A stretch of 64,000 bases of DNA. Origin: Halostella salina. Its GTDB lineage: Archaea; Halobacteriota; Halobacteria; Halobacteriales; Natronoarchaeaceae. A model generated the notes under the pieces. The model made no database searches, was not told where the DNA came from, and saw only the letters and a program-made list of their open reading frames with translations. Within the stretch, counting starts at the first letter, position 1. Each line of letters starts with the position of its first letter. The stretch covers positions 1 to 64,000 of the forward strand of contig NZ_RCIH01000012.1 of assembly GCF_003675855.1 (NCBI RefSeq), read 5' to 3'. Shown piece after piece: positions 17,997 through 39,731 of this stretch. A program made the position numbers and the translations under genes.

Positions 17997-18120
17997 CGAG
18001 CGGACAACATAGTGTGACAATCCACTATTCTATTGCAGTGGGGATTTCCCACAGTTTAACTTCCACTCTGGATGGCTGAGGTATATGCCTCTCACAACTA
18101 AAACGTGGAATACGGCGACG

Positions 18121-19377
18121 ATGGGAGTGGTCACAAAAACCCTCGAGCTGAAGCTTGTGGACCCGAACGTCCACAAGCGACAGAAACTTCGTGAAACGCG
18201 GGACGCATATCACCAGGCGCTTCGGGCCGCCTTCAACGCTGGCTGTGAGACACAGTCAGCGGCCAACGACGTGGTTATTGAGTATGACCTGAGCGGCTAC
18301 GCCAAAAACGCCCTCAAGAAGTACGTTCCACAACTTCACAACAGCTACGACGCTGACGAACTTCACGACGACCACCCGGTGCGGTTCACCAACGAGGGAC
18401 TGCAACTTGACCACCAGCCACAGAACGCTATCGAGTGGTACATCAAAATCCCACACCACGAGGATTACCACCTCTGGATACCGGCACGCGCTAATCCCGA
18501 ACAGCGGGAGTGGCTCGAAGCGGTGTACGTAGACGACGCCGAAATGGGTGAAAGTCGGCTGTTCGAGCGAGACGAAACGTGGTATCTCCACGTCACCGCT
18601 ACCCGCAACGTGGAGGACGAATCTGAAGCATCCTCCGACGAGCGGACGCCGATAGGCGTGGACATTGGAGAAGCGAGTCTCGTTACGGTGTGTCACCGCG
18701 ACGAGCACGGTTCTCCGGTTCGCCCCCAACTATGGGCCGACGACGGCAAGGCCGTTCGTCGGCTCCGTAAAACCTACTCCACCGCCAAGAGACGCCTTCA
18801 GCAGCGTGGCAGTGAGCGAATCGCAGAGTCCTACGGTGAATCGCTGTGGGACCAGATTGACGACGTGTTTCACCGTGTGACCCGTGAGGTCGTGGAGTAC
18901 GCCGGGTCTGTCGAGAACCCAGTGCTGGTGCTGGAAGACCTGACGTACATCCGTGAGAACATGGACTGCGGCGCGTACATGAACCGACGGTTGCACGGGT
19001 GGGGCTTTGCGAAACTCCACGCACAGATTCGCTACAAAGCCGCCGAGAAGGGGATTCCCGTCGAGACGGTGAATCCCCGGAACACATCGAAAGCGTGCCA
19101 CACCTGCGGTGAACACGGCTCCCGACCACGACAGGCGACGTTCAGATGCTCGAACGACGGTTGTTGGGTCGGTGAGTATCAGGCCGACGTGAACGGGGCG
19201 ATAAACATTGCAGACCGCTACCGTAGTGGAGAGAGTCACCACCAAAGCGACCGGGCTTCCCGGCAGAAGGCCGGTGACGATGACTCGGCTACGGATGGGG
19301 CCTCTTTGACCGGGCCACAAGACAGCCACGCCGATGCTGAAACCCAGCAGACGACGCGTGGAACGTATGCGTCTTGA
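18121..19377 (+). CDS. tnpB: RNA-guided endonuclease TnpB (element 1)
   Basis: The TnpB core runs from TKTLELKLVDP onward. The RuvC acidic triad is complete: D in IGVDIGEASLVT, E in VLVLEDLTYIRE and D in YQADVNGAINIA. The zinc ribbon is CHTCGEHG...CSNDGC. I place the start at ATG 18121 (MGVVTKTLEL, 418 aa) rather than 18085, because related proteins begin at this motif. The C-terminal ~60 residues are disordered and overlap the probable guide-RNA region. The protein should be a programmable nuclease that promotes element retention. Confidence 0.9.
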   Translation: MGVVTKTLELKLVDPNVHKRQKLRETRDAYHQALRAAFNAGCETQSAANDVVIEYDLSGYAKNALKKYVPQLHNSYDADELHDDHPVRFTNEGLQLDHQPQNAIEWYIKIPHHEDYHLWIPARANPEQREWLEAVYVDDAEMGESRLFERDETWYLHVTATRNVEDESEASSDERTPIGVDIGEASLVTVCHRDEHGSPVRPQLWADDGKAVRRLRKTYSTAKRRLQQRGSERIAESYGESLWDQIDDVFHRVTREVVEYAGSVENPVLVLEDLTYIRENMDCGAYMNRRLHGWGFAKLHAQIRYKAAEKGIPVETVNPRNTSKACHTCGEHGSRPRQATFRCSNDGCWVGEYQADVNGAINIADRYRSGESHHQSDRASRQKAGDDDSATDGASLTGPQDSHADAETQQTTRGTYAS

Positions 19378-20438: not shown

Positions 20439-20748
20439 AATAGTGCAAAAGTATTACGCTGGGTCACAGCGGCCATCGTCATCGGACGACTCAGCTATCG
20501 GTGAAATCGAGACGTTCTCCAAATCAAATTAGTAACAGTTCGATTCTACTGAAGATAGGCGTGATATCACGCACCCGTTTTGGCAGTGGTTGAAGGGTTC
20601 AGACAGCCCCTCCAGTGGCAGTCTTAACCAACAGAAGCCGGGATTGGTGGACTGTGTTGGTTAACGTGAACCAGAACAGTGGTTGAGTGAGTTCATGGGC
20701 CACCACAACATATCACGATATACCCGGCCGACAGGCGATCACACCATT
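20439..20748. other. Intergenic region between the MNT gene and CRISPR array 1
   Basis: No gene is seen. A perfect 10-bp inverted repeat, TTAACCAACA (20624-20633) and TGTTGGTTAA (20655-20664), could be a terminator for the leftward array transcript or an old element end. No further repeat copy is recognisable left of 20749. Confidence 0.4.
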
Positions 20749-23700
20749 TTTCAATGCCGTCTGGGCTTTTCTGGCTGCTGCGACACACCGCCGAAAACAG
20801 CGCCCACGCAGGATCCCAGTTTCGATGCCTATTGGGCTTTGCTGCCTTCTGTGACCACGAGCGGGATGCCTTCGGGAATCTCGCGTGTGCTGTTTCAATG
20901 CCTTTTGGGCTTTGCTGGCTTCTAAGACGGGGACATCGGACTGGCAGCTCCTCGATCTCGACATGTTTCAATGCCGTAGTGGCTTTGCTGAGTCCTGAGA
21001 CCGCTGGCGGCGACGGCCGGAGCGACTACAGCCAACTGTTTCAATGCCGTAGTGGCTTTGCTGGCTTCTGCGATATCATACCCCGGGCACCGGAGTGTCA
21101 TCTCCGTCTCGTTTCAATGCCTTTTGGGCTTTGCTGGCTTCTGCGGCGCGCTAACATCCGACCCTGATACCCGGGGTTCTTGTTTCAATTCCTAATGGGC
21201 TTTACTGGCTTCTGCGACCGCGGGTTCGAACCAGTCGGGCGACCCGCACTTGGGAGTTTCAATGCCTTTTGGGCTTTGCTGGCTTCTGCGACATTCTCAG
21301 GCTGTGCATCCCGGTTGAAGATTTCGTTTCAATGCCGTCTGGGCTTTGCTGGCTTCTGCGACAGCGGCCAGAAGAACCAGCCGGCCGTGCCGAGGATCGG
21401 TTTCAATGCCGTTTGGGCTTTGCTGGCTTCTGCGACGCGAGGGGGCTGAAGGTCTTGCCTTTGCAGGCCATGTTGTTTCAATGCCGTTTGGGCTTTGCTG
21501 GCTTCTGCGACTTGCCGCAACGATGTTTAGACGGTTCAGAGCCGCCGTGTTTCAATGCCGTCTCGGCTTTTCTGGCTTCTGCGACCTATCACGAAAGCAG
21601 TACGTGCCGGCGGTTGCATAAGTTTCAATGCCGTCTCGGCTTTTCTGGCTTCTGCGACATGATCTGGGCGGCCATCAAAGGCGGGGCGTCGTGGCAGTTT
21701 CAATGCCGTCTCGGCTTTTCTGGCTTCTGCGACGCTGGGACAGCGCAGACTGCGGTATATACGCAGCATGTTTCAATGCCGTCTCGGCTTTTCTGGCTTC
21801 TGCGACCTACACCGACGTGTTCGACGAGGCGATCCCCGACGAGTTTCAATGCCGTCTCGGCTTTTCTGGCTTCTGCGACCGCGCTCGGGAGAAACTCCCC
21901 GGGCTGGTGCGCCAAGTTTCAATGCCGTCTCGGCTTTTCTGGCTTCTGCGACCACTCCCCGTCGTGGGGGTGGTGGGTGTCGCAAGTCGTTTCAATGCCG
22001 TCTCGGCTTTTCTGGCTTCTGCGACTCGTCGAGATCGAGGCCGTGGACAGCCCCGAGCCGGGGTTTCAATGCCGTCTCGGCTTTTCTGGCTTCTGCGACC
22101 CGCGGGCGTGCCGGCCGTCGCCATATGCACGCCGCGTTTCAATGCCGTCTCGGCTTTTCTGGCTTCTGCGACGTAGGCGCGCCGGAGGTATTTTTCGGCA
22201 TACGAGTTTCAATGCCGTCTCGGCTTTTCTGGCTTCTGCGACGTCGGACCTGAATACGGACCCGTGGCAAATGTACGAGTTTCAATGCCGTCTCGGCTTT
22301 TCTGGCTTCTGCGACCCGCCAGCCATGCGGGGATGATGTCGATGGTGGAGTTTCAATGCCGTCTCGGCTTTTTTGGCTTCTGCGACACGTACACGTCGGT
22401 GCCGTCGCCCCGCGGGAAGATGAAGTTTCAATGCCGTCTCGGCTTTTCTGGCTTCTGCGACCGTCCTCCGGCCACGCGTCCACGTTCCAGTCGACATAGT
22501 TTCAATGCCGTCTCGGCTTTTCTGGCTTCTGCGACATGGCTCGTCGAGACCAACGCCGACGGCGCGACCGTGTTTCAATGCCGTCTCGGCTTTTCTGGCT
22601 TCTGCGACTTGGCGCTGTCGGGGTCGCCGATCGCGCCGTCGCCGTCGTTTCAATGCCGTCTCGGCTTTTCTGGCTTCTGCGACCGGGCGTCATCTGGGCT
22701 TTCTGGGCGTGGTTCTTGTTTCAATGCCGTCTCGGCTTTTCTGGCTTCTGCGACCCTGTACGACGGCAGCGACGGGTGGTATATGGAACAGTTTCAATGC
22801 CGTCTCGGCTTTTCTGGCTTCTGCGACTGAACGCCCCGGCAGGGAGCCGGGACGGTTCGAGCGGTTTCAATGCCGTCTCGGCTTTTCTGGCTTCTGCGAC
22901 AACATCCGCCAGCTGGTTAACGCTCGGGCAATCGAGTTTCAATGCCGTCTCGGCTTTTCTGGCTTCTGCGACGCGCCGCGACGCTCGCCCGGAGCGCGCC
23001 CGATGCGGTGTTTCAATGCCGTCTCGGCTTTTCTGGCTTCTGCGACCGCCGCCACCGCCGCCGTACAGTCCACCACCACCGCCGGTTTCAATGCCGTCTC
23101 GGCTTTTCTGGCTTCTGCGACCGTGCTATCTCGGCCGGATCCCCGCCGCCGTTGTCCGTTTCAATGCCGTCTCGGCTTTTCTGGCTTCTGCGACATTGGC
23201 ATGGACGAGTCAGTGGACATGCCGCAGCTGGGTTTCAATGCCGTCTCGGCTTTTCTGGCTTCTGCGACCAGCGACCCCAGAGACAATCAGGAGAACGGAA
23301 CCGTTTCAATGCCGTCTCGGCTTTTCTGGCTTCTGCGACGATTGCGAACTCATAGTGCTCTCACTCTCTCGGGAGGTTTCAATGCCGTCTCGGCTTTTCT
23401 GGCTTCTGCGACTCAGTTCTTCTTCGTCAGTCATGGGCTTGATTGATTGTTTCAATGCCGTCTCGGCTTTTCTGGCTTCTGCGACCTGGACCTCTCCGAC
23501 ATCGAAGACTGACGACTCCGGCTGTTTCAATGCCGTCTCGGCTTTTCTGGCTTCTGCGACGTGGCGTTACGTGTCCGCGTGGGACGATCGTTCATACAGT
23601 TTCAATGCCGTCTCGGCTTTTCTGGCTTCTGCGACGTCCCAGACCATGCACGCCCCGCTTTTCACCGCCGTTTCAATGCCGTCTCGGCTTTTCTGGCTTC

Positions 23701-24657
23701 TGCGACCATTTCGGTCGGTCCGTCGTAGCTCTGACTCATGTTTGTTTCAATGCCGTCTCGGCTTTTCTGGCTTCTGCGACGGATACCTCGTCGGTCGGTT
23801 GGCCGCCGTCCGTCATGTTTCAATGCCGTCTCGGCTTTTCTGGCTTCTGCGACCTCTGGGTCCACCTGTTCCCGCAGTACAGCGACGGGTTTCAATGCCG
23901 TCTCGGCTTTTCTGGCTTCTGCGACGAGCCTGCGTGCGCCATCCAGAGCGACGCCAACCTGTTTCAATGCCGTCTCGGCTTTTCTGGCTTCTGCGACGCG
24001 TCAGTATTCGCACTGTGGATATTCGCCACACGAACCGTTTCAATGCCGTCTCGGCTTTTCTGGCTTCTGCGACCTGGAAGACCTCCCGATCGGCCTCAAT
24101 GCCGAACTGTGTTTCAATGCCGTCTCGGCTTTTCTGGCTTCTGCGACTGGACGGTCCGCTTGAGGTCCCCGGATTCGATCGTCTGTTTCAATGCCGTCTC
24201 GGCTTTTCTGGCTTCTGCGACTCACGCTCCCGTCGCGTCCCCGCACCTCAAGCGTGTCGTTTCAATGCCGTCTCGGCTTTTCTGGCTTCTGCGACGCGCG
24301 AGATACACACACGCGCCGCGTCGCGTGGTTTCAATGCCGTCTCGGCTTTTCTGGCTTCTGCGACGGTTGACGTGTCCGATCCCGCCGAAGATGGTGACTT
24401 GTTTCAATGCCGTCTCGGCTTTTCTGGCTTCTGCGACGTAATACGTCGTGGGACGGCTTCGACGACGTGGTACAGTTTCAATGCCGTCTCGGCTTTTCTG
24501 GCTTCTGCGACCTGCCGTTTTGTCGACGAGCCGATGCCGGACTGTTTGTTTCAATGCCGTCTCGGCTTTTCTGGCTTCTGCGACGCTGCAGGACTACCCG
24601 GAGCTGGCGCACAAAAGCGTGTTTCAATGCCGTCTCGGCTTTTCTGGCTTCTGCGAC
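20749..24657 (-). CRISPR. CRISPR array 1, 54 repeats of 37 bases, transcribed leftward
   Basis: I count 54 repeat units and 53 spacers of about 33-39 bases. On the plus strand the main repeat begins GTTTCAATGCCGTCTCGGC and ends GGCTTCTGCGAC. The crRNA strand is minus, because the complement ends in ATTGAAAC, the usual 8-base archaeal handle left by Cas6. Units from 21549 to 24621 are nearly identical (one T-for-C change at 22350). The first eleven units (20749, 20820, 20892, 20965, 21038, 21111, 21182, 21256, 21326, 21400, 21475) are diverged, as expected at the leader-distal end. The leader lies at 24658-24785. Confidence 0.98.
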
Positions 24658-25614: not shown

Positions 25615-26448
25615 ATGCGCCATATCACAGTCACCGTCCGCCCGACTACACGGTTTCCGGTACCGATCTCGGATGGATACAGTGTCTACAGTTCACTCCT
25701 CTCGGCACTGGACGCAGTCGACGAATCCGTCAGCGAACACATTCACGACTCACCGCTCGGAAGCCTGCACTGCAGCGGTCTGCTGGGTGTGTTCGGGGAC
25801 AGTGACCGGTCCTATCACAAATCGGTCCGACCGAACCAGAGTTACGAGCTAACTCTTGGGGTCGTGGACCCACAGGATCAGGAGATATTCCAGACGCTCG
25901 TGCAAGCGCTCGTGCTGGAGGGCGACGAACTCGAATTGACGAACGGAACGCTTCACGTCGAAAGCTTCGAGAGTGAGAACACAACTCGGCAGGAAATTCT
26001 GAAGGAGGCTAACGGGTACGACGACCCAGCCATCGAGATCAACTTCCGGACTGCAACCTGCATTGAGGAGGCAGGTGAGGTAACAACCATGTTCCCCTAC
26101 CGGGTTGCAGTGTTCAACAGCCTCCTTGGAAAATGGAATCAGAGTGCTTCCGAGGAAGTGGAACTCGATATCGGGCGTGAATCTCTCGCTGCTGGCGTTA
26201 TCGAGAAGCCCGATGAACGCTCGTACGATACTCATAGTGTCCTGGTGAATCGCGTAAAGAACGAGAAGGGAGAAAATCGGAATCGGTTCAAACAGGGTTT
26301 TTCCGGCCGTTGTGCGTATGAATTCAAGGATGCTAGTGACTCAGTGGAAAACGCGGTAACTGCTCTAGCGATGTTTGGGGAGTATTCGGGAGTAGGGAGT
26401 GCCGTTGCACGAGGCTGTGGAAACATCATTGTGGAGGTGACATCATAA
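25615..26448 (+). CDS. cas6: Cas6 CRISPR RNA endonuclease
   Basis: The 277-residue protein begins RHITVTVRPTTRFPVPISDGYSVYSSLLSAL, the first RRM strand of Cas6. It ends with the glycine-rich loop GEYSGVGSAVARGCGNI near the C-terminus that contacts the repeat RNA. It would cut each repeat to leave the ATTGAAAC handle seen in both arrays. Its TAA overlaps the next ATG by one base (TAATG), starting a fully coupled cas operon. Confidence 0.93.
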   Translation: MRHITVTVRPTTRFPVPISDGYSVYSSLLSALDAVDESVSEHIHDSPLGSLHCSGLLGVFGDSDRSYHKSVRPNQSYELTLGVVDPQDQEIFQTLVQALVLEGDELELTNGTLHVESFESENTTRQEILKEANGYDDPAIEINFRTATCIEEAGEVTTMFPYRVAVFNSLLGKWNQSASEEVELDIGRESLAAGVIEKPDERSYDTHSVLVNRVKNEKGENRNRFKQGFSGRCAYEFKDASDSVENAVTALAMFGEYSGVGSAVARGCGNIIVEVTS

Positions 26449-28865
26449 TGAACCCAAAAGCTGCTCAAATGGCACACAGCTGGCTCGTAGAGCAAGAGGA
26501 TTTGTACACTAACGTAATCGATCACGCTGGTGCGTACGATGCGAAGGTTGATTCCTCAGCCAACTCATCGCTGGCGGCCCATATCCTTAATGCGGTAACG
26601 GTTGGTGTCAATACGTTCGTCTATAACGCTGTTCGGTCCGATGAAGACGTTACAGAGTATGAGGAGGAGATTCGGGTTCTTGCGGCCGCTCTCGCGCTAC
26701 ACGATACGAACAAGTACGTTCGAGAAGCCTACGGGTTTGACGCCGACGGAAACACTGCAGATGCCTTCGACTACTATTTCGACCCCGAAGATGGTGAGGG
26801 CGATGATTTCGGGATTGAGGAATTCCTAGGTGATGGATATCGTGATGATCTTCATTATCTTGTTCAGCGGACCGAAGTCCGTGAAGACACGCGAGAGACA
26901 CGGGCGACTGATACAGAGTTCCGTGGATTAGAGCGATACTGTCGGATCGGCGACCAGATCGCTTCGGTTGCATTGCGAGGTGGAATTACCGAGGTGGCTG
27001 AGAAGCTTGCTACCTATTTCGGTGATGAGGTTCACTATATCGAATTCACGGAGTTAGAACAGCCGGTGTTGAACGACTTGCTCATCAGTACGGTGAAAGA
27101 GGTTATAGCTGGAGAGGGTAACTTTGAGACGAAGGGTGTTATAATAGGGAGTACACCGGATGGTGTACTTTATCTTGGTAACTCAATTGAGCGGGAAAAA
27201 CTCCAGAAGCTGACTTTAAATCGCCTTCCAGAAAGAATCCAAGATGAGTTCACATTTTCCTGTAAGCTTGGATGGAACAAATTCGACTACGATATATTAG
27301 CTGAGATAGAGATCCCGATTGGTAGGAAAAAGGATAGGATTCGGGAACAGGCAACTGAACTAATCAAATCGGATGCTGGTGGAACTGAGCCTTTTGAGTT
27401 AATCCCAAATGAATTTACTGAATATCTACCGGTACTAATAAAAGCGATATATGAAGATAACCGGAAGGAATATCCTACGGAGGACTTGACAGAAGCCTAT
27501 GAATCTGTTTACCATTCCATCGAGGGTGGAAAAAGCACGAAGGGTCAAAAAGTAAAGATAAAACTACTAAAATACCTATGTAAAAATTTTGACGAATATA
27601 GAGATGATCTTCGGTCTCTACAGGCAGAAATTGGAGAGGAACTTGATGGAGATCTGACGCCAGAGACAGATGCAACAGGCGATATCATAGAGCGGTTTTT
27701 CTCTATTACAACGAAATTAAGTCTTGCACCGAAAGATAGAATGTGTTTCCTATGTGGAGCAGAAGCTGATACAAAGTACCAGAAAGGATATGGTATATAC
27801 CAGACACAAGGGTATTCTCGGCGTGTCTCTCCACATTCCAAATATAAAACAATTTGTGGTGTATGTAACTTAGAATATGCCCTATTTTCACATGTTTGTG
27901 GAGAACATGACATTAATACGAGTGAATCTTTAGAGACGGCATATTTCTATTTCAGCGACTTCCTTGGGGATGTTCGAGTTAGAAGACGCCGAATTGGAAA
28001 TGTTGTCCATGGTGATGCCAACGAACTTGATGACACAAAGGTAACTACGGGCCTCGTTAGTTCACAGTATTTTATTCAACCAATATTCATAAGGGGGGAG
28101 AACCACCGGATGGCAGTCATCCGGCAGGTGATGCAGGCTGCCCAGGATGCCGGGATGAAGGTGGTCGTGGGACGACCGTTCACGCGCTTCGAGAGCGCGG
28201 ATGCGGTCTTCACGGACGAGGAGGCCACCCGACCGCAAGAACTCCTCGGGCTGGATGAAGCGGAACGCTTCGGGCCGCTCCCCGACTTCGTTTCGGAGGA
28301 TCGGACCGATTCCCATCTCCGCCGCTCGCTCCAGCTGTTCAAAATCATGAGTATGGTTGGACAGGAGGCCAACATGTCCAATCCATACATCCAACTCGAC
28401 AGGGACACGTTCCACAGTATCGCCGACTTCGCAGTCGTCAATCACGAACACGCAACCCGACTCTCGGACCTCCGGGAGTACTTCGAAACGTACCATCAAG
28501 ATGCACTTATGGAAATGAGAACCATTGCCGAACGAGGGATCGACCTGTTCGGCAAGCAGTTCGACAGCAAGTACAAGAAAACGAAAGTCTTCCGCGAGGC
28601 TATCGACGCGTTCCTCAGCGGAAAGAATCAGCGGATGGAGGATGACGAACTCATCGAGTACGTTGAGAGTCAGGTGTATGCCGTTGCTGAACGTGAGGAT
28701 TACGCCGGCTACGTCGAAACTGGTGAAGCAGAGGCGTTCGTCGAAGCGATACACACCTATCTGGTGGAGAACGACCTTGACGACCTCAAGAAACTCTCGG
28801 ACTGGGAAGACGCACTGGTGAACTCGTACTACTACGCCTACGACCAAGCACTTCAGGACCAATAA
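26448..28865 (+). CDS. cas10d: Cas10d (Csc3), large subunit of type I-D Cascade with HD nuclease domain
   Basis: The 805-residue protein starts with an HD-nuclease-like domain: H45 in AAHILNA and H85-D86 in ALALHDTNKY. A zinc finger follows mid-protein (C433xxC436 ... C470xxC473). The HD domain on the large subunit, together with a Cas3 that lacks one, is the hallmark of type I-D. A strong Shine-Dalgarno GGAGGTGA (26433-26440) precedes the start. Roughly 27100-28090 is conspicuously AT-rich with different codon use, and composition snaps back to GC-rich near 28095, so the gene looks mosaic. Csh1/Cas8b was considered, but the neighbours are Csc2 and Csc1. Confidence 0.87.
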   Translation: MNPKAAQMAHSWLVEQEDLYTNVIDHAGAYDAKVDSSANSSLAAHILNAVTVGVNTFVYNAVRSDEDVTEYEEEIRVLAAALALHDTNKYVREAYGFDADGNTADAFDYYFDPEDGEGDDFGIEEFLGDGYRDDLHYLVQRTEVREDTRETRATDTEFRGLERYCRIGDQIASVALRGGITEVAEKLATYFGDEVHYIEFTELEQPVLNDLLISTVKEVIAGEGNFETKGVIIGSTPDGVLYLGNSIEREKLQKLTLNRLPERIQDEFTFSCKLGWNKFDYDILAEIEIPIGRKKDRIREQATELIKSDAGGTEPFELIPNEFTEYLPVLIKAIYEDNRKEYPTEDLTEAYESVYHSIEGGKSTKGQKVKIKLLKYLCKNFDEYRDDLRSLQAEIGEELDGDLTPETDATGDIIERFFSITTKLSLAPKDRMCFLCGAEADTKYQKGYGIYQTQGYSRRVSPHSKYKTICGVCNLEYALFSHVCGEHDINTSESLETAYFYFSDFLGDVRVRRRRIGNVVHGDANELDDTKVTTGLVSSQYFIQPIFIRGENHRMAVIRQVMQAAQDAGMKVVVGRPFTRFESADAVFTDEEATRPQELLGLDEAERFGPLPDFVSEDRTDSHLRRSLQLFKIMSMVGQEANMSNPYIQLDRDTFHSIADFAVVNHEHATRLSDLREYFETYHQDALMEMRTIAERGIDLFGKQFDSKYKKTKVFREAIDAFLSGKNQRMEDDELIEYVESQVYAVAEREDYAGYVETGEAEAFVEAIHTYLVENDLDDLKKLSDWEDALVNSYYYAYDQALQDQ

Positions 28866-29815
28866 TGACACTCGAATACCCCGACAAAGGCCTCGTCGAA
28901 TCGCACAGCATCTACAGGAAACGAAAGCCGACGGTGACGTTGATCGTCAAGCGGGACGTGACTGAACCGACGCTGTTCCGGAACTCCAACCACGACCGCG
29001 CCGAAACGCAGGAGTTCGGTGACAAACTCCACGCTCAGGTCAACGGTGAGAAATTCACCAGCAAAGAGCGCCTCACTGGACTCGACTTGCTTCGGCGGCT
29101 GGACGACGATGGAACGCTCATTGATGACGAATATACGTACAACGAACCAGATGACTTGGCGGATTCCCTGAACGTTGGGACGCTCACCTACGGTCTCGCG
29201 GGGACCGGGGACCAGGATTTCGCCATCAAATCCCGGGTCGTGGAGGGCTACACCTATACGACCGACGAATACGACCTGATGAACAAGGAAACCCGGAACG
29301 CTGTGTATGAAACCGGGACCATGCAAGATAACGAAGGCGAACAGTCACAGGCACTGTTCGACTTTGTGAAGGTCCAGCCAGGAAACGACCTCGTGCATTT
29401 CATCACGCTGGAGGCAGCCACAGGGCCAATGTTGCTCTACACGCTCCACAATATCCTGAATACCGGAAAGTATGGGGCACGAGAGACCCGAACGGGTCGG
29501 AATGTCCGCAACGATGTCCTTGGTGTCATTCTCGGGGATCACGATACGTCCCTTTCGACCGGCGAACTGCTAATGGAGTATCACAGTGACGACGATGATT
29601 TGGTCGAAAGCCTCAGTGAGTACATTCAGGGGGTTCGCCGTGAGGACTGGGACGTGTACGGGGAGTTCGAGGGTGCCGAAGCTGCCCCGAACTGGCTTGA
29701 TGACCTGCTGAGCGTGGCTGCCCGTGAAGCCGATGACGCAGATGAGATCATGAAAGAAGAGTTCGGTCGCCTAATGACGGAGGCTCGGGAGAACTTCGAA
29801 CTGACCGATGAATGA
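28865..29815 (+). CDS. csc2: Csc2 (Cas7 of type I-D), crRNA backbone subunit
   Basis: The 316-residue protein carries the Csc2-like start VESHSIYRKRKPTVTLIVKRDVTEPTLFRN and the motif TLHNILNTGKYGARETRTGRNVRN. The latter resembles the conserved glycine/arginine region of Cas7 proteins that grip the crRNA. Several copies would form the Cascade backbone. It starts in a TAATG overlap with cas10d and overlaps csc1 by 8 bases. Confidence 0.87.
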   Translation: MTLEYPDKGLVESHSIYRKRKPTVTLIVKRDVTEPTLFRNSNHDRAETQEFGDKLHAQVNGEKFTSKERLTGLDLLRRLDDDGTLIDDEYTYNEPDDLADSLNVGTLTYGLAGTGDQDFAIKSRVVEGYTYTTDEYDLMNKETRNAVYETGTMQDNEGEQSQALFDFVKVQPGNDLVHFITLEAATGPMLLYTLHNILNTGKYGARETRTGRNVRNDVLGVILGDHDTSLSTGELLMEYHSDDDDLVESLSEYIQGVRREDWDVYGEFEGAEAAPNWLDDLLSVAAREADDADEIMKEEFGRLMTEARENFELTDE

Positions 29816-30509
29816 ACAGACGTTCGAGGCGACGCTCTACGCGCCCCTCTTCTACTCTAGCTCAGAGGGGCGGGCAATTCGAACCCAACCAACGCTGTCA
29901 GCGACTGCACTAATGCACGCACTTGGGTACCGCTACTTCGATATGGAAAAGCGGTACGCCGAATTCGGGGAACACGCTACTACACCTGATTATTCACATC
30001 TTCGGGATGCGTCGTTTTTCGTCTCGGACATGCGTCCGGTGGCAGTCGAAACTGATGAGCGAACGTTCCGGAGTACAGACTACCGATCCGAACGGAACTT
30101 CACCACGAACGATACTGATCTGGCCAGACAGATTTCTGGTGACAAATCGATTCCGTCGATACTGGAGGACTCCGGAGCGGCCTATCAGACGATCCGCAAC
30201 TACCTCGGTGTCTCACCGGGATCTACGTTTGAATTCACTATCTGGAGTGAGCAACCCATCCCCGACCGGCCCTTCTTCAGGATGGGTATCAAACAGACCG
30301 GTGAATTCCGAGCAGAGGAATCATCACAAAACTCCATTATCCTGAACAAGTACCTGCTCTCGGAGGTGTATGATGTCAGTGAGGAACTGCTCACGGAGCT
30401 GATGGAACACTGTGATTCGTTCAAGCGGGGCAATGATCCGAGACTGCAACATTTTGTCGGTTCAGATCCGGAGTTCGTTCGCGATCGGATTATCCCGGAG
30501 GTGGTCTGA
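29808..30509 (+). CDS. csc1: Csc1 (Cas5 of type I-D), crRNA 5'-handle subunit
   Basis: The 233-residue protein begins with the beta-strand FEATLYAPLFYSSSEGRAIRTQPTLSATALMHALGYRYF, matching the Csc1 pattern in which the chain enters a RAMP fold and reaches a conserved aliphatic-aromatic helix. It lies between Csc2 and Cas3' as expected. Its TGA overlaps the next ATG (TGATG at 30507-30511). Confidence 0.83.
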   Translation: MNEQTFEATLYAPLFYSSSEGRAIRTQPTLSATALMHALGYRYFDMEKRYAEFGEHATTPDYSHLRDASFFVSDMRPVAVETDERTFRSTDYRSERNFTTNDTDLARQISGDKSIPSILEDSGAAYQTIRNYLGVSPGSTFEFTIWSEQPIPDRPFFRMGIKQTGEFRAEESSQNSIILNKYLLSEVYDVSEELLTELMEHCDSFKRGNDPRLQHFVGSDPEFVRDRIIPEVV

Positions 30510-32398
30510 TGGACCAATTCGCAGTTTCTGGTGCCAGCCTTGCGACGGAAGAGCCCAAATACGGACTGACAGACAGTGACTTCCCTGAGGCACGTGCATT
30601 TCAGAATGATGTCGTAGAGTGGGTGCATGACGGTGATGCTCCGGTTGCTGCACTTCGTGCCCCGACTGGGGCAGGTAAAACTGCTACCTTCCACGAACTC
30701 ATAGAGAACCACGATCCTACCCTTCTGGTCTATCCAACGAATGCGCTACTTCGTCAACAGCGTAATCGGTTCACCGACGCTGGTGTCGATGCAGCAGTGT
30801 TGAACGGGTCAACACTGGAAGGCCATGGTCACATGCGGACCGAAAACCTGCTTGATTACGTCAATACATTTGCCAGCGACAACGAAGTGGTTCTGACCAA
30901 CCCTGACATCCTCCAGGCTACGATTCAGGACATGTACCGTGGAGGCCAGGCCATGCGGTTCTTCAACTGGTTTGATGCGATCGTCTACGATGAATTCCAC
31001 TTCTATGATCCGCTTGCTGCCAGTGGGTTACTCCTACAGATCAAAATCATTTCAGAACGAAGCCCGGACCCACACATTCTACTCGCATCCGCGACTCCGA
31101 ATGAGGATTTCGTGGACTTCGTTCGGACTCAGCTTCAACTGGATGTCGAGGACATCGAAGCCGAATACGTATCGAACGGCGATCAGTTTCGGTATCCAGT
31201 AGACGTTTACCGGCATGAGGAACGACGGATCATGGACGACAGGGAAACCGTTGCTCAACTTCTGCAGGATGAAATTGAAGCTGCGGACCAGTATGAGGAA
31301 CCTCGTGTCGTGCTCACATTCAATAGTGCCAAAGACAGTAACGACTTTCATGAGTTCCTAGCTGACGAGTACGAGTCAGTATACAAACACGCCGAAAAGG
31401 ACAATGGATTCGACACGCACGACGAACGCGTTGACCTTGATGAAACAGATTTCTACATCCTGAATACCACCTCCAAGGGTGAGGTTGGTCTTGATTACGA
31501 TGTGCGGACCCTGATAATGGATACGCCCCATAGCGCGAGTGCGTTCATCCAGCGATTCGGGCGTGCTGGTCGGGCGTCGGAAGCCTCCGTCCACGTCTAT
31601 GGCTTGGGTCAGAATATTTGTGACTCGGATACTGCGTTCCCTGATTTTGTCGACCAAATCTACACTGGGCTACGAGAGGACCGGATGGAGACCCAGGCAC
31701 TTGCAGACTTGGTCGGGTTTCGAGGTGCATACGGGATCAAAACCCGAGAGGAGAATTACGGAGGCCTGAACCCCGAGATATACGAGGATCTTGCATCCAA
31801 TGTCGAAGAGTACGGCCGCTGGCGGCGGTTCATTGAGGACATTGAAACTGAACTTGACGCCCTGCGTGGACTCGGTGGGAAGGTACCGAATGGAGAGCGA
31901 GAATCGCTCTTGGAATTCACAAAGGAGTGTTTCAAAACCTTTAGAGGGCTTCGCGGTCGGTCGCTAAAAGCCCAGATCGAATACCCTCGCGGAGATCGGA
32001 TCGGACTGACAACGTATGACCTCTCCCGAACGCTTCGTGGATACGAGATTGAGGCTGTTCGTGACGATAGCGTCTTTGCCGTTGAACCTGCTGATGAGAA
32101 CTCTCTCTCCGTCGTAACGGCACGGCTACCGGCCTACGAAACGGAACCGACCAGATACGACGAACCAACGACTGCGATCGAAGACACGCTACAGGAAAAG
32201 ATCCACCGTCGGATCGATCGCACTTGTCAGGACAACGATTGTGAAGTCTCCATGGATCTCATGCATAGGTTCTTCCAGATCGTCCGGATCACGGAGGCGA
32301 TCATCCCTCAGCGGATCACGACGGCGACACACGAGATTGAAGTTGACGACAACGGGGATGGACCACCAGATATCAACGCAAACCGTCGGCAAGTATGA
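30509..32398 (+). CDS. cas3: Cas3' helicase of type I-D (no HD domain)
   Basis: The 629-residue superfamily-2 helicase has Walker A APTGAGKT (residues 51-58), the DExH box YDEFHF, motif III LASATPNE and motif VI FIQRFGRAGRAS. No HD nuclease domain is present at either end, because in type I-D the nuclease resides on Cas10d. A Shine-Dalgarno GGAGGTGG (30497-30504) precedes the ATG. It ends in an ATGA overlap with cas4. Confidence 0.92.
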   Translation: MDQFAVSGASLATEEPKYGLTDSDFPEARAFQNDVVEWVHDGDAPVAALRAPTGAGKTATFHELIENHDPTLLVYPTNALLRQQRNRFTDAGVDAAVLNGSTLEGHGHMRTENLLDYVNTFASDNEVVLTNPDILQATIQDMYRGGQAMRFFNWFDAIVYDEFHFYDPLAASGLLLQIKIISERSPDPHILLASATPNEDFVDFVRTQLQLDVEDIEAEYVSNGDQFRYPVDVYRHEERRIMDDRETVAQLLQDEIEAADQYEEPRVVLTFNSAKDSNDFHEFLADEYESVYKHAEKDNGFDTHDERVDLDETDFYILNTTSKGEVGLDYDVRTLIMDTPHSASAFIQRFGRAGRASEASVHVYGLGQNICDSDTAFPDFVDQIYTGLREDRMETQALADLVGFRGAYGIKTREENYGGLNPEIYEDLASNVEEYGRWRRFIEDIETELDALRGLGGKVPNGERESLLEFTKECFKTFRGLRGRSLKAQIEYPRGDRIGLTTYDLSRTLRGYEIEAVRDDSVFAVEPADENSLSVVTARLPAYETEPTRYDEPTTAIEDTLQEKIHRRIDRTCQDNDCEVSMDLMHRFFQIVRITEAIIPQRITTATHEIEVDDNGDGPPDINANRRQV

Positions 32399-32994
32399 GT
32401 TCCGAGCTAATCAACGTCTCCGACCTCAACCAGTACGCGTACTGTCCGCGACGGTACTGGTATCTTCACTTCTACGATACGCAAGGTCGAAATTACGAAC
32501 GTATCGAGGGGAAGACGACCCACGAAAACAAATCGACGCGTGGAGACTGGGTGAATGAACTCTACTTGGAGTCGGAGCAACTGGGGCTGAAAGGCAAAAT
32601 CGATGTGCTCGATATCGATGACGCACAGCCTGTTCCGGTTGAGCGGAAGCGAGCCGAGAGCGGCGAGTATTACAGGAGCGATGAACTACAGCTTGCTGGC
32701 TACTGTCTTCTACTTGAAGAGCATATTGACGAACCAGTTCGAGAGGGGGCGATCTACCTATACGAGACCGACCAGCGAATGCATGTTCCGATCACCGAAG
32801 ACCATCGTGAGACCGTTCGCCAGCAGGTGAACGCTATCCAGGCGATGTCTATCGATTCGATCCCGTCACTAACCGATAACCCGAAGAAGTGCGAGGCGTG
32901 CTCCACCCGTGAGTACTGTATGCCCGAGGAAACGGTGATGCTCGAACCGGAGCAAGCTGAAGGAACCGGATTTGAGGAGGTGATCTCGGAATGA
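32395..32994 (+). CDS. cas4: Cas4 iron-sulfur exonuclease
   Basis: The 199-residue protein has one cluster cysteine near the N-terminus (AYCPRRYWYL) and three at the C-terminus (CEACSTREYC). Between them are the PD-(D/E)xK nuclease residues (GKIDVLD, VERKR) and a QLAGY-type motif III. Cas4 trims prespacers and selects the PAM-side end during adaptation. The genes cas4-cas1 overlap as ATGA (32991-32994). Confidence 0.95.
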   Translation: MSSELINVSDLNQYAYCPRRYWYLHFYDTQGRNYERIEGKTTHENKSTRGDWVNELYLESEQLGLKGKIDVLDIDDAQPVPVERKRAESGEYYRSDELQLAGYCLLLEEHIDEPVREGAIYLYETDQRMHVPITEDHRETVRQQVNAIQAMSIDSIPSLTDNPKKCEACSTREYCMPEETVMLEPEQAEGTGFEEVISE

Positions 32995-33986
32995 AGGCTG
33001 CTGAAGGAATGTTCGACGAATCGGTTGTATTCGTCACCAAACAGGGGACACAGGTACGGACTGACGGCGGCCGGATCGTCGTATGGGACGTAGATGGGGA
33101 TGACGGTGAACTCGCAAGCTACCCGACCGAAAAACTCGATACGATCAATGTGTTCGGTGGCGTAAATTTCAGTACCCCGTTCGTCGCTGAGGCAAACGAA
33201 CACGGGATCGTTCTCAACTACTTCACACAGAACGGACAGTACCGTGGCAGTTTCGTTCCTGAACGAAACACGATCGCCGAAGTTCGCCGGGCACAGTATG
33301 CGCTCTCGGAGCAAGACGAACTCGAGATAGCTAAAGCAATGATCGCAGGAAAGATCCGGAATGCCCGGACGCTGTTATCCCGAAAAGGTGTACACGGAAC
33401 GGACGTATTGAAAGATCTCGGAGTCCGGGCAGAAAACGCGAGTAGTAAAGATGACCTGCGTGGAACGGAGGGAGAAGCTGCTGAACGATACTTCGATCGT
33501 CTGGACGAGACACTCACGGACGGCTGGACCTTCGAAAAGCGCACGAAGCGACCGCCAGAGGATCACATCAACTCACTACTCTCGCTGACTTACGTGATGG
33601 TCAAGAACGAGGTTCTGAGCGGCTTGCGACAGTACAATCTTGATCCGTTTCTGGGGGTTCTGCATGCCGATCGGCACGGCCGGCCGTCCCTTGCACTTGA
33701 TCTCCAAGAGGAGTTCCGACCGCTATTCTGTGATTCACTCGTAACGAGATTGGTCAACCGCGGTGTGATCACCCACGACGATTTTACAGCGGATAATCAC
33801 CTTGCAGATGACCCATTCAAAACGTACCTTTCGAAGTTCGACGAGTACATGCAGGAAGAGTTCGTGCATCCGCACTTCGACTACTCCGTGTCTCGACGGA
33901 AGGCAATCCGGCAGCAGGTGATCCTACTCCGAAAAGCGATAACAGACGAGATGGATAGCTACCACGCGCTTACTTTCAGCCGATAA
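32991..33986 (+). CDS. cas1: Cas1 integrase
   Basis: The 331-residue protein has the conserved C-terminal helical active site: VKNEV, GLRQYNLDPFLGVLHADRHG and SLALDLQEEFRP, which hold the metal-binding Glu, His and acidic residues. A perfect Shine-Dalgarno GGAGGTGATC at 32976-32985, five bases before ATG 32991, decides this start over the in-frame ATG at 33009. It works with Cas2 and Cas4 and presumably serves both arrays, whose leaders are homologous. Confidence 0.96.
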   Translation: MKAAEGMFDESVVFVTKQGTQVRTDGGRIVVWDVDGDDGELASYPTEKLDTINVFGGVNFSTPFVAEANEHGIVLNYFTQNGQYRGSFVPERNTIAEVRRAQYALSEQDELEIAKAMIAGKIRNARTLLSRKGVHGTDVLKDLGVRAENASSKDDLRGTEGEAAERYFDRLDETLTDGWTFEKRTKRPPEDHINSLLSLTYVMVKNEVLSGLRQYNLDPFLGVLHADRHGRPSLALDLQEEFRPLFCDSLVTRLVNRGVITHDDFTADNHLADDPFKTYLSKFDEYMQEEFVHPHFDYSVSRRKAIRQQVILLRKAITDEMDSYHALTFSR

Positions 33987-34376: not shown

Positions 34377-36221
34377 GTCGCAGGAGTCAGCAAAGCCACT
34401 ACGGCATTGAAACTCGTCGGCGGTCTCACTCATCGCTACCACCCAGCGTCGCAGGAGTCAGCAAAGCCACTACGGCATTGAAACAGCATCGCCTCGGGCA
34501 TCCCCCCAGTCCACCGGTTGGTCGCAGGAGTCAGCAAAGCCACTACGGCATTGAAACACAGCGACACCGGGCTACGAGGCGTTTGAGAGCGTCGCAGGAG
34601 TCAGCAAAGCCACTACGGCATTGAAACCGGGCGGCGGCCCCGTCCCACGGCATCAGCGGCCCCGTCGCAGGAGTCAGCAAAGCCACTACGGCATTGAAAC
34701 GAGGACCTCGTCGTCGCGAGCGTCGCCGGGCTCGAGGTCGCAGGAGTCAGCAAAGCCACTACGGCATTGAAACTCCATCGGACCCGCGAAAGTCGGTCGG
34801 ATACCGTTTGTCGCAGGAGTCAGCAAAGCCACTACGGCATTGAAACTATTAACATGGGAGTGCTCGACTGGCCCGAGAAGGTCGCAGGAGTCAGCAAAGC
34901 CACTACGGCATTGAAACAACCCGGCGGGCGACTACAACTTTCGCGGTGCGGCGTCGCAGGAGTCAGCAAAGCCACTACGGCATTGAAACGGAACTGTCGA
35001 TCCGCGGCAGCGACAGCGCCACCCGTCGCAGGAGTCAGCAAAGCCACTACGGCATTGAAACGGTTGCATATCGCCAGCATTCGGTCGTTGCCGTCCGGTC
35101 GCAGGAGTCAGCAAAGCCACTACGGCATTGAAACTCGTAAGCCCGGGGAGAGCAACCCCGTAAACACGGTAGTCGCAGGAGTCAGCAAAGCCACTACGGC
35201 ATTGAAACCGCCATGGATCACCCTCAATCGCGGTACGGGAGTGGTCGCAGGAGTCAGCAAAGCCACTACGGCATTGAAACCCCGCTCGATGACTGCGAGA
35301 AGCATTCGGATTCGAGTCGCAGGAGTCAGCAAAGCCACTACGGCATTGAAACTGGGTCGGACGCGAGACGGACGACGGCCGTTCGCGTCGCAGGAGTCAG
35401 CAAAGCCACTACGGCATTGAAACAGGTAGTCGTAGCAGACCTTCACGGCGTGCTGACGGCGTCGCAGGAGTCAGCAAAGCCACTACGGCATTGAAACCGG
35501 GCAACACCTCGGGCCGGCCTTCCACGTCTTCTTGTCGCAGGAGTCAGCAAAGCCACTACGGCATTGAAACTCTAGGAGTTGATCCTCGTCTAGAAACACT
35601 CATCCGTCGCAGGAGTCAGCAAAGCCACTACGGCATTGAAACTAGTCGTGGGGCCGGTTCTGGTTGACCGGCGGGACGTCGCAGGAGTCAGCAAAGCCAC
35701 TACGGCATTGAAACGATTCGATTCGTGCGCCAGTCGAAGATTGTGGCGTTGTCGCAGGAGTCAGCAAAGCCACTACGGCATTGAAACACGGACACGGCGG
35801 TCGTCAGCGTTGACGGCGCGGCGTGTCGCAGGAGTCAGCAAAGCCACTACGGCATTGAAACTAGGTTGTCTTAGGCATCGTTCTGAAGTTGCTGGTAGTG
35901 TCGCAGGAGTCAGCAAAGCCACTACGGCATTGAAACTTTCGAGTTTTGTCGCTGTTATCAACTGAGTGGTTTGTCGCAGGAGTCAGCAAAGCCACTACGG
36001 CATTGAAACTCGAAACGCCTCGTATCCCCGACCCGGAGGCCCGTCGCAGGAGTCAGCAAAGCCACTACGGCATTGAAACATTGTCGTCTCGCCGGGCATG
36101 ACCGTCTCCTGCTGTCGCAGGAGTCAGCAAAGCCACTACGGCATTGAAACCGGAGTATATCGCCCCCCAGCAAGGCGGAAAGACGTCGCAGGAGTCAGCA
36201 AAGCCACTACGGCATTGAAAA
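34377..36221 (+). CRISPR. CRISPR array 2, 26 repeats of 37 bases, transcribed rightward
   Basis: I count 26 repeats with 25 spacers of about 34-37 bases. The repeat begins GTCGCAGGAGTCAGCAAAGC and ends CTACGGCATTGAAAC. It differs from the array 1 repeat (same strand sense) at 6 of 37 positions. All units look identical except the last (36185-36221), which ends GAAAA. A partial unit-like GTCGCAGGCTGCAG at about 36244 may be a decayed remnant. The leader is at 34261-34376. Both arrays thus point away from the cas genes. Confidence 0.98.
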
Positions 36222-36444
36222 CCTCCAGCAGACAGTCACTTGCTGTCGCAGGCTGCAGCACCGGGAGATGGTAGTGATAGTCGATAAGCTTGTCTTGGAC
36301 TAGTTGACCCTTTGTTCTCACATTCGCACCTGGTTAGTGGCTGGGATCGTTCCGGATTACCGGAGATATGTGAACTCAACAATGAGACAATTCCGCTATC
36401 TTCAGAATGAGATAGAATAGATATTTTCTGGTTGGGGATGTCTC

Positions 36445-36736
36445 AGTACCACTTGCTGGGAATTCGCCTGGAACTGGGAGAGTGTACCTTCTCGCTGTTC
36501 ACTAGCATTCTCCAAACCCACAAAGGTACGCTGGAACGTTTTCCTGTAACCACTCACGCTTTCCATCAGCAGTGCTTCAAACGCTCAAAGGTTCGTCTGG
36601 AACCGTTCAGATGGCGGCGATAATCCTCGTCACGCACCTCGTTTCAAACCCACATGGGTGCATCTGGAAATTGTGGGGGGAGTTCCCGCCGACGATGGAG
36701 TTCAAGTTTCAAACCCACATGGGTGCATCTGGAAAC
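36445..36736 (-). CRISPR. Relict mini-array with a different haloarchaeal CRISPR repeat
   Basis: Five degenerate units recur every 63-67 bases. Their shared CTGGAA cores start near 36468, 36531, 36597, 36664 and 36729. The two best units (from 36641 and 36706) share GTTTCAAACCCACATGGGTG followed by CATCTGGAAA. A third, GCTTCAAACGCTCAAAGGTT followed by CGTCTGGAAC, resembles the complement of the widespread ~30-base haloarchaeal repeat that ends in GGGTTTGAAGC/GAAAC. Sense is therefore probably minus. Unit divergence and lack of nearby matching cas genes indicate a dead array. Confidence 0.75.
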
Positions 36737-37048
36737 CGGCCGAATATGGCCGGGTAAGCCACGCTACTGGCCACTCACACTAAGTCATTTTCATCGACCC
36801 GCTATCCCCCCAGACACCCGGGAGGTCGATGGAATATTCGCTTCCGGACAGATATCAACAGGTAGTGAGCACTACGTAGTCGTCTCTGCTACCCCCGATA
36901 GTTTTTAACCGCCGGATCCGGTCGCTGAGAGTACACGCACTCCAGCGTTAGCATCGTCGCCGTGGACAACTCCTGCCCGGGAGTACCCCCACGTGACGGG
37001 TAGCCGTGAGGCGACCTTCAGCGACGTATTTCTCCAGTGATCCAATCC
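36737..37048. other. Intergenic region after the relict array
   Basis: No gene is seen. ATAGTTTTTAACC at 36897-36909 is a possible promoter element for the frameshifted gene that follows, though it lies about 140 bases from its start. No element end is recognised. Confidence 0.3.
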
Positions 37049-38042
37049 ATGAGTATTCAAGCCAGCCGATCGGAGCAGCAGCACCGTTCCAGTAGACAAC
37101 AGTACGAGCACGCCCCAGAGGAAGTGTTCGAGGAGGCGATCTTGACGGAGAGCACCGTCTGCTCGAACTGCTTCCGTCGGCGACTCAAGCCCGTTGTAGT
37201 ACTGGTCCCGGTCGAACACGCAGAGAACGACATGACTGCCTTGTCGGCCGATGTAGATCCTGAAACAGCAGATGGGGCTGTCAAATGTACCACGTTCGAA
37301 CCCACACACGATGCAGGCAGCTGCCACCCGCCGACGGTCGCTGATCAGGCCGACGAACTCGACGTTCCACAGTCCTGGAAACGGGCAACCCCGCCGAAAA
37401 AAAGTTTGCAAGTGCGGAGCAGTCGACGATGCGCCACCCGAAGGCCGGCTCTCGAAGGAGGCGGCGCTACGCCACGCACACCGGCTGTCGGACCGGTTCG
37501 AGGAACAGGGCGTCGTCCACGACCCGCACACGCTCAAGCGACGCGTGGTGATGTACAAGAAAGTCCCCTGGCTCACGAACTGCACTGACGCGATTTTCCG
37601 CCACGCGACCGAGGTCGCTGTCGCCGACGCCCGCGACGTGGAACCGCGGGAGATTCAGAAAGGCGAGAACGGCGACGTGCTGTACGACGAGGAGGGCGAC
37701 ATCGTCTACGCCCATCACGGGGTTGAGGATCTGCTGCAGGTCGACCCGGTGACCCAGCGAACACTCCGGGAGCAGACGTGGCTCAAGCCCATCCTCGTCG
37801 ACCCGCGACTAAACGCTGCCACGGCACTCTCGAACATCGAACGCGCCCTCCGCGTCGCCGAGAAGGAGTACAAGCGCGGCAACGAGGTTCGACAGACCCG
37901 AATGCAGGTCGAGGAACTGATCGAGGACCTCACGAGTGCGTGTGGGTACGACAGCCAGCCGTCGTCGGTCCCGACCGGCGATTCGCTCGGGACCGGGTCG
38001 GGAACCGGCACGGGCGTCGGTTCGGCGAGTGGGGGTGACTGA
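37049..38042 (+). pseudogene. Cysteine-rich protein of unknown function, split by a +1 frameshift
   Basis: The first frame runs from ATG 37049 (MSIQASRSEQQ, with TVCSNCFRRR and later Cys/His) to the A7 run at 37397-37403. The natural continuation, VCKCGAVDDAPPEGRLSKEA onward to the stop at 38042, is in another frame. Removing one A joins them smoothly as ATPPKK-VCKCGAV, giving about 330 residues. The cysteine pairs suggest zinc binding. The C-terminus is a Gly/Ser/Thr-rich tail. No family is recognised. The following gene starts three bases later, so the two form a unit. This could be a real pseudogene or a homopolymer sequencing error. Confidence 0.6.
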
Positions 38043-38349
38043 CCGTGTCGCTTGACCGCTACGGTGACGACGAAACGCAGGCCCATGTCGCGGAACAAAC
38101 CGACTCCTCGCTGGTCGTGCGCTTCTTCCAGCGGCTCTCGCCCGATCCGCGGAAGGCCCCCAGTCGGATCGCCAAGATCCTGCTGGGCGTGTTCATCTTC
38201 CTCGTGACAGTCGGTATCTGGGGGGCGTTCTACCTGAACGTCGACAGCGGCGGCTCATCGTACTGGATCCTCCGGACGCTCATCGGGGCGTTGCAGCATC
38301 CCATCGTGCCGCCGGTCGCGAGCATCGTGGTCTACTACCGTTATAGAAA

Positions 38350-39731
<1,382 letters not shown>

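Follow-up and report, generated by a model that had tools for sequence, protein, structure and literature searches.

What is the short series of repeats lying beside a type I-D CRISPR array of Halostella salina, and could it still do anything? A preliminary description of the DNA analysed here (the window: positions 1 to 64,000 of contig NZ_RCIH01000012.1, 64,000 nt) had taken the region 36445-36736 for a decayed mini-array of five degenerate units, left by a second CRISPR system that the I-D locus had displaced or with which it coexisted. The mini-array is an orphan type I-B array of which the leader end is left, comprising a leader, four clear repeats, the trace of a fifth repeat, and four spacers. 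That it is an array with its own leader, that it is an orphan as far as the genome was searched, and that one of its spacers, S2, comes from a cas6 gene form a joint reading to which we assign a probability of about 0.85.

Anatomy of the mini-array

The following parts are given from the leader towards the old end of the array.

36736-36834, minus strand: type I-B CRISPR leader, 99 nt, with matches next to the I-B repeats of 22 or more further genomes of the order
36706-36735, minus strand: repeat unit 5, leader-proximal, TTTCCAGATGCACCCATGTGGGTTTGAAAC, with 3 departures at 22 conserved repeat columns
36671-36705, minus strand: spacer S1, 35 nt; target search without result
36641-36670, minus strand: repeat unit 4, an exact copy of unit 5 over 30 nt
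36604-36640, minus strand: spacer S2, 37 nt; in-frame match to type I-B cas6, EVRDEDYRRHLN
36574-36603, minus strand: repeat unit 3, GTTCCAGACGAACCTTTGAGCGTTTGAAGC, degenerate with its GAAGC end kept; Rfam RF01337, 29.0 bits, below the gathering score
36538-36573, minus strand: spacer S3, 36 nt; target search without result
36510-36537, minus strand: repeat unit 2, degenerate, with a 1-nt deletion; 0/1000 shuffles as good
36475-36509, minus strand: probable spacer S4, about 34-35 nt; target search without result
36463-36474, minus strand: marginal trace of unit 1, limited to its first 12 nt; against unit 3, 7/1000 (slot) and 41/1000 (whole stretch) shuffles as good

The recurrence of units of about 30 bases at steps of 63-67 is real: units 4 and 5 are exact 30-mers, and the 5' ends of successive units are spaced by 65, 67, 66 and 63 nt. 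Degeneracy had been ascribed to all five units, which holds for units 3 and 2 (unit 3 and unit 4 are alike at 22/30 positions) and fails for units 4 and 5, while unit 1 is marginal. For unit 2, aligned with its single deletion, none of 1000 dinucleotide shuffles was as good against units 4/5 or unit 3, and one was as good against the consensus of the Rfam family CRISPR-DR24. Unit 1 is called marginal on its shuffle counts against unit 3 (given above) and against DR24 (61/1000 for the slot, 304/1000 for the stretch), and it gives no signal against units 4/5 (725/1000 and 997/1000, respectively). The spacers, of 35, 37, 36 and about 34 nt, are each unique and have the length of type I-B spacers (about 34-38 nt). 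A sub-threshold Rfam match to DUF3800-XI at 36675-36717 overlaps S1 and unit 5 and was taken as chance.

The repeats had also been proposed to be of the haloarchaeal I-B type, read on the minus strand and distinct from the 37-nt I-D repeats; unit 3, a plasmid-borne I-B system and the leader bear this out. CRISPR-DR24 matches unit 3 on the minus strand with 29.0 bits and an E-value of 0.017, so that the 30-nt DR24-family repeat of haloarchaeal I-B arrays is present here with a score under the gathering score of 35. When the DR24 model was run on the organism's own genome, unit 3 was the best place (E 0.004), followed by a runner-up at E 1.6. Units 4/5 reach 16.0 bits with this model (E 4.8), which is chance level, and at an E limit of 10 the model also rings in 13/14 control genomes; the DR24 evidence is thus restricted to unit 3. 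The kinship of units 4/5 follows from their register with unit 3, from the leader, and from their likeness to the repeats of an I-B system on the Halorussus aquaticus plasmid NZ_CP100402.1 (26/30, as compared to 22/30 with the DR24 consensus). That system is annotated with cas2, cas4, cas6, Cas7/Csh2, Cas5b and a TM1802 protein. In a genome of the same genus (G004), a related repeat is matched 46 times in one array, and a Csh1 gene lies on a different contig. The exact 26-base core of units 4/5 was found in 0 stretches of the genome_contigs collection, from which the window's own genome is possibly absent.

We searched 392 genomes of the order with positions 36704-36880 and obtained matches in 26, the organism's own included. 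The repeat-plus-leader rows show 68-75% identity, and most of the rows that reach the leader stop near window position 36834. The range first given for the mini-array, which holds all the units, is therefore too short. An alignment was built from 25 arrays of 22 other genomes in which the leader lies beside the repeat; G117 (repeat match alone) and G142 and G305 (not among the rows listed) were left out. The aligned leaders share TTCCATCGACC and GGTCGA.G.AAA, with the repeat at a constant distance, and the first repeat of the mini-array is thus adjoined by a type I-B leader. The mean identity of the window leader to the others is 0.64, against 0.55-0.73 for the other 25 arrays, a figure inflated by the fact that these arrays were found through likeness to the window leader. 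The window leader has 3 departures at 29 conserved leader columns; leader and repeat departures together amount to 6, the highest sum of the 26 rows, a count inflated since the conserved columns were picked without the window row. We read this as a leader that has been kept and in which drift has begun. Since a conserved I-B leader adjoins unit 5, decay is mainly at the old end. The term decayed thus suits units 1-3 but not the leader and the two leader-proximal repeats, which are kept even though they depart from the consensus more than those of other arrays. The word fossil is half right for a leader-bearing orphan array that drifts most at its old end.

The repeat ends hold an order of events. 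Units 4 and 5 both end in GAAAC and the older unit 3 ends in GAAGC; among 25 other I-B leader-proximal repeats, 23 end in GAAGC, one in GAAGG, one in GAAGT and none in GAAAC. As units 4 and 5 are an identical pair, the duplication presumably took place after that repeat had diverged. In the simplest reading, where the order of uptake is itself deduced, the leader-proximal repeat would have changed first and would then have been copied during the uptake of S1 by machinery with the 30-nt I-B ruler. Uptake of the last I-B spacer in trans by the I-D machinery was rejected because the duplicated block is 30 nt and not 37. The last seven bases of units 4/5, TTGAAAC, also end the local I-D repeats, which might let the I-D machinery process the leader-proximal repeats. 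We give this little weight, since one transition explains the shared ending.

Absence of cognate cas genes and the type I-D neighborhood

The search for I-B machinery in the organism's own genome (3.74 Mb, 17 contigs, 99% complete) covered Cas6, Csh1 and Cas7; I-B cas genes could still lie on plasmids that the assembly lacks. Neither TIGR01877 (Cas6) nor TIGR02591 (Csh1) found a match, with a Haloferax volcanii control ringing in both, and I-B Cas7 gave no match in a search that had no positive control. TIGR01877 is silent in this genome on the window's own divergent I-D Cas6, so that equally divergent Cas6 proteins would be missed. The earlier remark that no I-B effector genes are present therefore holds for Cas6, Csh1 and Cas7 in the whole genome, window included. 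The array is an orphan as far as these three proteins were searched, and without I-B cas genes it gives no I-B immunity. Its description as the remnant of a second CRISPR system is supported.

Such orphans do not appear to be a rarity in the order. Csh1 is matched in 20/26 of the leader-matching genomes, and in the six others (G000, G123, G199, G234, G248, G316) Cas6 is matched in 0/6. Loci with an I-B leader and array in genomes that lack both matches are L008/L075 (G316), L027/L073 (G199), L012/L071 (G123), L015/L072 (G248) and L028/L074 (G234), with 4 repeats shown in G316 and 5 in G199.

The surroundings of the mini-array are of type I-D.

About 20748-24650: I-D array 1, 54 repeats of 37 nt
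25615-33986, plus strand: type I-D cas6, cas10d/csc3, csc2, csc1, cas3', cas4 and cas1, several below NCBIfam cut-offs
34377-36221, plus strand: I-D array 2, 26 repeats of 37 nt, its tail facing that of the mini-array

Array 2 is on the plus strand and the mini-array on the minus strand, in agreement with the opposite orientation first noted. The I-D set comprises the only cas genes among the 17 window frames scanned. Its Cas10d (26448-28865, plus strand) scores 19.9 of 60 bits and its Cas6 (25615-26448, plus strand) 25.9 of 58.65 bits, both far below the NCBIfam cut-offs, which makes the haloarchaeal I-D set here a divergent one. At the decayed old end of array 2 (36185-36252), the last repeat ends in GAAAA and is followed by TGTCGCAGG, a stub of another 37-nt repeat.

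Displacement of the I-B system by the I-D locus is not borne out. The same-genus genome G003 has matches to I-D Csc2 and to Cas6, and also one to Csh1 that scores under the cut-off, from which it appears that I-D and I-B can coexist in the genus. We also considered a link between I-D and orphan I-B arrays and rejected it, as the numbers are too few (Csc2 in 2/6 leader genomes without Csh1 and in 1/20 with Csh1).

Two TnpB-like RNA-guided nuclease genes (Pfam Cas12f1-like_TNB) flank the region, one at 38471-39724 (plus strand), about 1.6 kb beyond the I-B leader, and the other at 18085-19377 (plus strand), about 1.4 kb before I-D array 1. Overlapping frames occupy 37037-38467 (plus strand), between the leader and TnpB. 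One of them, 37272-38042, has part-length relatives annotated as hypothetical on seven haloarchaeal plasmids, and two frames overlap around a run of A at about 37398, where a frameshift may have occurred.

Spacer S2 and type I-B cas6 genes

Searching for the targets of the spacers, as first advised, was informative for S2, which matches I-B cas6, and gave no target for S1, S3 and S4. A distant BLAST against plasmids placed 33 bases in the cas6 gene of Halocatena salina NZ_CP096023.1 with a weak E-value of 0.2; this gene sits inside a full I-B operon. Over its whole length S2 matches the Halocatena salina gene at 29/37 positions, in frame (EVRDEDYRRHLN for the spacer, TVRDDDHRRHLN for the gene), and the translation of S2 is a conserved Cas6 segment. 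When the 27-base core of S2 was searched in the 392 genomes with at most 3 mismatches, two places were found outside the organism's own genome, both in I-B cas6: one in G338, at the coordinates of the Halocatena salina match, and one in G197, in a Cas6 frame near Csh1. The reversed pattern gave 0 places, and the chance expectation is about 0.01 by our own arithmetic rather than by a tool.

Across 22 I-B loci, the best site for S2 is the Cas6 site in 14, of which L044 and L049 cover one stretch, and the Cas6 motif of S2 is found in 18, with 22 to 30 of 37 bases matching. The best cas6 match is 30/37 (G077), which puts S2 first of 82 spacers in plain DNA identity to I-B loci, a modest lead over the best I-D control at 27/35. 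Translated and scored against 160 Cas proteins, S2 reaches 54 and 580 other distinct spacers reach at most 41, counting open frames only. These 580 comprise 577 controls (78 I-D spacers, 469 from arrays of Csh1 genomes and the Halorussus plasmid, 30 from other orphans) and 3 spacers from the mini-array itself. With raw six-frame translations of the loci the runner-up scores 50, through a proline-rich string that is a low-complexity intrusion.

A near-perfect cas6 match was not found among the genes compared, 30/37 being the best, and S2 derives from a type I-B cas6 gene that is not itself among those found. The source was probably foreign. The same-genus cas6 genes match S2 at 23/37 (G004) and 27/37 (G003). 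A degenerate pattern of the Cas6 peptide has two occurrences in genome_contigs, in the cas6 genes of Halorubrum xinjiangense (26/37) and Halobaculum gomorrense (23/37), and 0 in viral_contigs. Relatives of the Halocatena salina Cas6 occur in 28 plasmid records; none was found in the phages collection and none was confirmed in viral_contigs. Haloarchaeal proviruses can carry I-B genes, Cas6 relatives included, according to PMC12596717.

For S1, S3 and S4, distant BLAST against plasmids and phages (E at most 10) returned chance-like matches only, with the repeat matches and the cas6 match from the same spacer stretch set aside, and their Cas-protein scores are not above those of the controls. 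Exact 20-mers from S1 (two), S2 (one) and S3 (one) gave 0 matches in viral_contigs. One spacer of four thus lies inside a cas gene, and that gene is of the array's own subtype. We tested 78 I-D spacers as possible guides against I-B operons and rejected them, as none was convincing. Further, in five more cas-less genomes, seven repeat groups provided 50 spacers, none of which matched a Cas protein (best score 38), and an anti-cas spacer is therefore not the rule for such orphans. Repeat scanning yielded no spacer for a second array in G248 (L034, leader place C4:80315).

Possible roles and known relatives of the array

The array is what remains of an I-B system whose cas genes the genome search did not find. 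If an I-B system entered the cell, its Cas6 and Cascade could in principle use the resident crRNA of S2 against the incoming cas6 gene. For this, the incoming Cas6 would have to cut the mini-array transcript, and a guide with the handle TTTGAAAC would have to be acceptable to Cascade. Haloferax volcanii provides a measure of the demands on the target: TAT is reported as one of six active PAMs, and the first 10 bases must pair, position six excepted (PMC4946936). Just 5' of the S2 site, TAT is present at 7/18 cas6 sites and TAC at 11/18, and the first 10 bases of S2 match at 8/10 at best in the 12 cas6 sites counted. By those demands, S2 is unlikely to act against any of the cas6 genes read; its true source gene may differ. 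As for the repeats, mini-arrays of Haloarcula hispanica are reported to give immunity when their repeats are conserved and little or none with the diverged CreA repeats (PMC9458426). Units 4/5 lie between these two kinds, and the three conserved-column departures of unit 5, including GAAAC for GAAGC, might hinder its use by an incoming I-B system.

We judge it somewhat more probable than the reverse that S2 is an ordinary anti-plasmid or anti-virus spacer which by chance fell in the cas6 gene of a mobile element, and that the array is now idle and drifting. The units at the old end are badly degenerate, and the 6 conserved-column departures exceed those of any of the 25 other arrays, in a count biased against the window by the way its columns were chosen. 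The 28 plasmid records with Cas6 relatives agree with this, as do the lack of anti-cas spacers in the other cas-less arrays tested and the plasmid-borne CRISPR loci by which PMC3285040 explains archaeal anti-cas spacers. Nevertheless, the leader can still be recognised, as can the two newest repeats, which are identical, and an idle array of this kind is compatible with a latent guard effect. Selection would be the keeper of the orphan array if incoming I-B systems were destroyed through their own Cas proteins, a role that we regard as unlikely. The anatomy is that of E. coli I-F orphans, i.e. a cas-less, short residual array with a spacer for a cognate cas gene (as described in PMC2886076, PMC8616872 and PMC5972030), and the TAT found at 7/18 sites is an active PAM in Haloferax volcanii (PMC4946936). 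Against it stand a single anti-cas spacer among four, a seed match imperfect at every cas6 site counted, TAC, which is not a listed PAM, at 11/18 sites, and an altered repeat end; moreover, a relative with the same spacer was not found. The proposal that the leader and newest repeats of an archaeal array persist because S2 turns incoming, often plasmid-borne, I-B systems on themselves is accordingly tentative and rather improbable. If it were true, a genome running on I-D would be protected from incoming I-B systems.

Self-attack offers another route to the orphan state: the array's own system would have acquired a spacer from its cas6 gene, and the damage would have favored cells that had deleted the I-B cas genes. 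The target does lie in the cognate system and that system is gone, yet S1 is on the leader side of S2 and was thus taken up after it, so that the I-B machinery worked after S2 was in place, unless S1 was gained by recombination. Nor is S2 closely matched by the cas6 genes of the same genus, and we hold this account to be quite improbable. A regulatory mini-array of the CreA/CreR type, in which Cascade, guided by degenerate repeats, represses the promoter of a toxin or of cas genes, is hardly credible here. Degenerate repeats are described as typical of such modules (PMC9458426), but an I-B effector was not found in the genome, the array includes a genuine leader along with four normal-length spacers, and S2 matches inside the cas6 coding frame and not at a promoter. 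The cognate effector and promoter target that define CreTA and CreR are thus not seen.

Taken as the leader end of an orphan I-B array, the locus can be placed among known systems. With haloarchaeal I-B arrays (DR24; NZ_CP100402.1) it shares the 30-nt repeat, spacers of 35-37 nt and the conserved leader. It differs from them by G to T at repeat position 1, the GAAAC end, the decayed old end, and I-B cas genes that were not found in the genome. With CreTA and ectopic repeats, as described in PMC9458426, it has in common degenerate I-B-like repeats in a haloarchaeon, whereas it has a leader and several spacers, and neither an I-B Cascade nor a toxin or promoter target was seen. Brodt et al. 2011 (PMC3285040) report that cas genes of other systems are frequent targets of archaeal spacers and link this to plasmid-borne CRISPR loci. 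The mini-array likewise has a protospacer in a cas gene, in contrast being cas-less and aimed at its own subtype; Table S7 of that paper may hold such cases. The open-access titles and abstract openings consulted name no archaeal orphan array with anti-cas spacers, which is a weak indication that the case is new.

An array that looks decayed can thus be ordered in time and traced to a source through its leader, its repeat length and the translation of a spacer. The locus provides a testable case for asking if the CRISPR types that a genome can hold are shaped by its resident CRISPR memories, and it suggests that the anti-cas state of E. coli I-F may arise also in archaea, in type I-B, beside a different resident type. 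In E. coli, residual cas-less arrays have spacers that match cognate cas genes (Touchon and Rocha 2010, PMC2886076), and according to reviews (PMC8616872, PMC5972030) Almendros et al. 2016 demonstrated that such arrays block plasmids with I-F cas genes. As described there, the E. coli arrays and the mini-array are both short and residual, without cognate cas genes and with a spacer in a cognate cas gene. The mini-array differs in being of type I-B and archaeal, in its target (cas6 as opposed to cas1, cas3 or csy2), in the coexisting I-D locus, and in being known from sequence alone. Whereas most or all spacers match cas genes in E. coli CRISPR3, 1/4 does so here. The mini-array is thus a new archaeal I-B case of the anti-cas spacer in a cas-less array already known from E. 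coli I-F.
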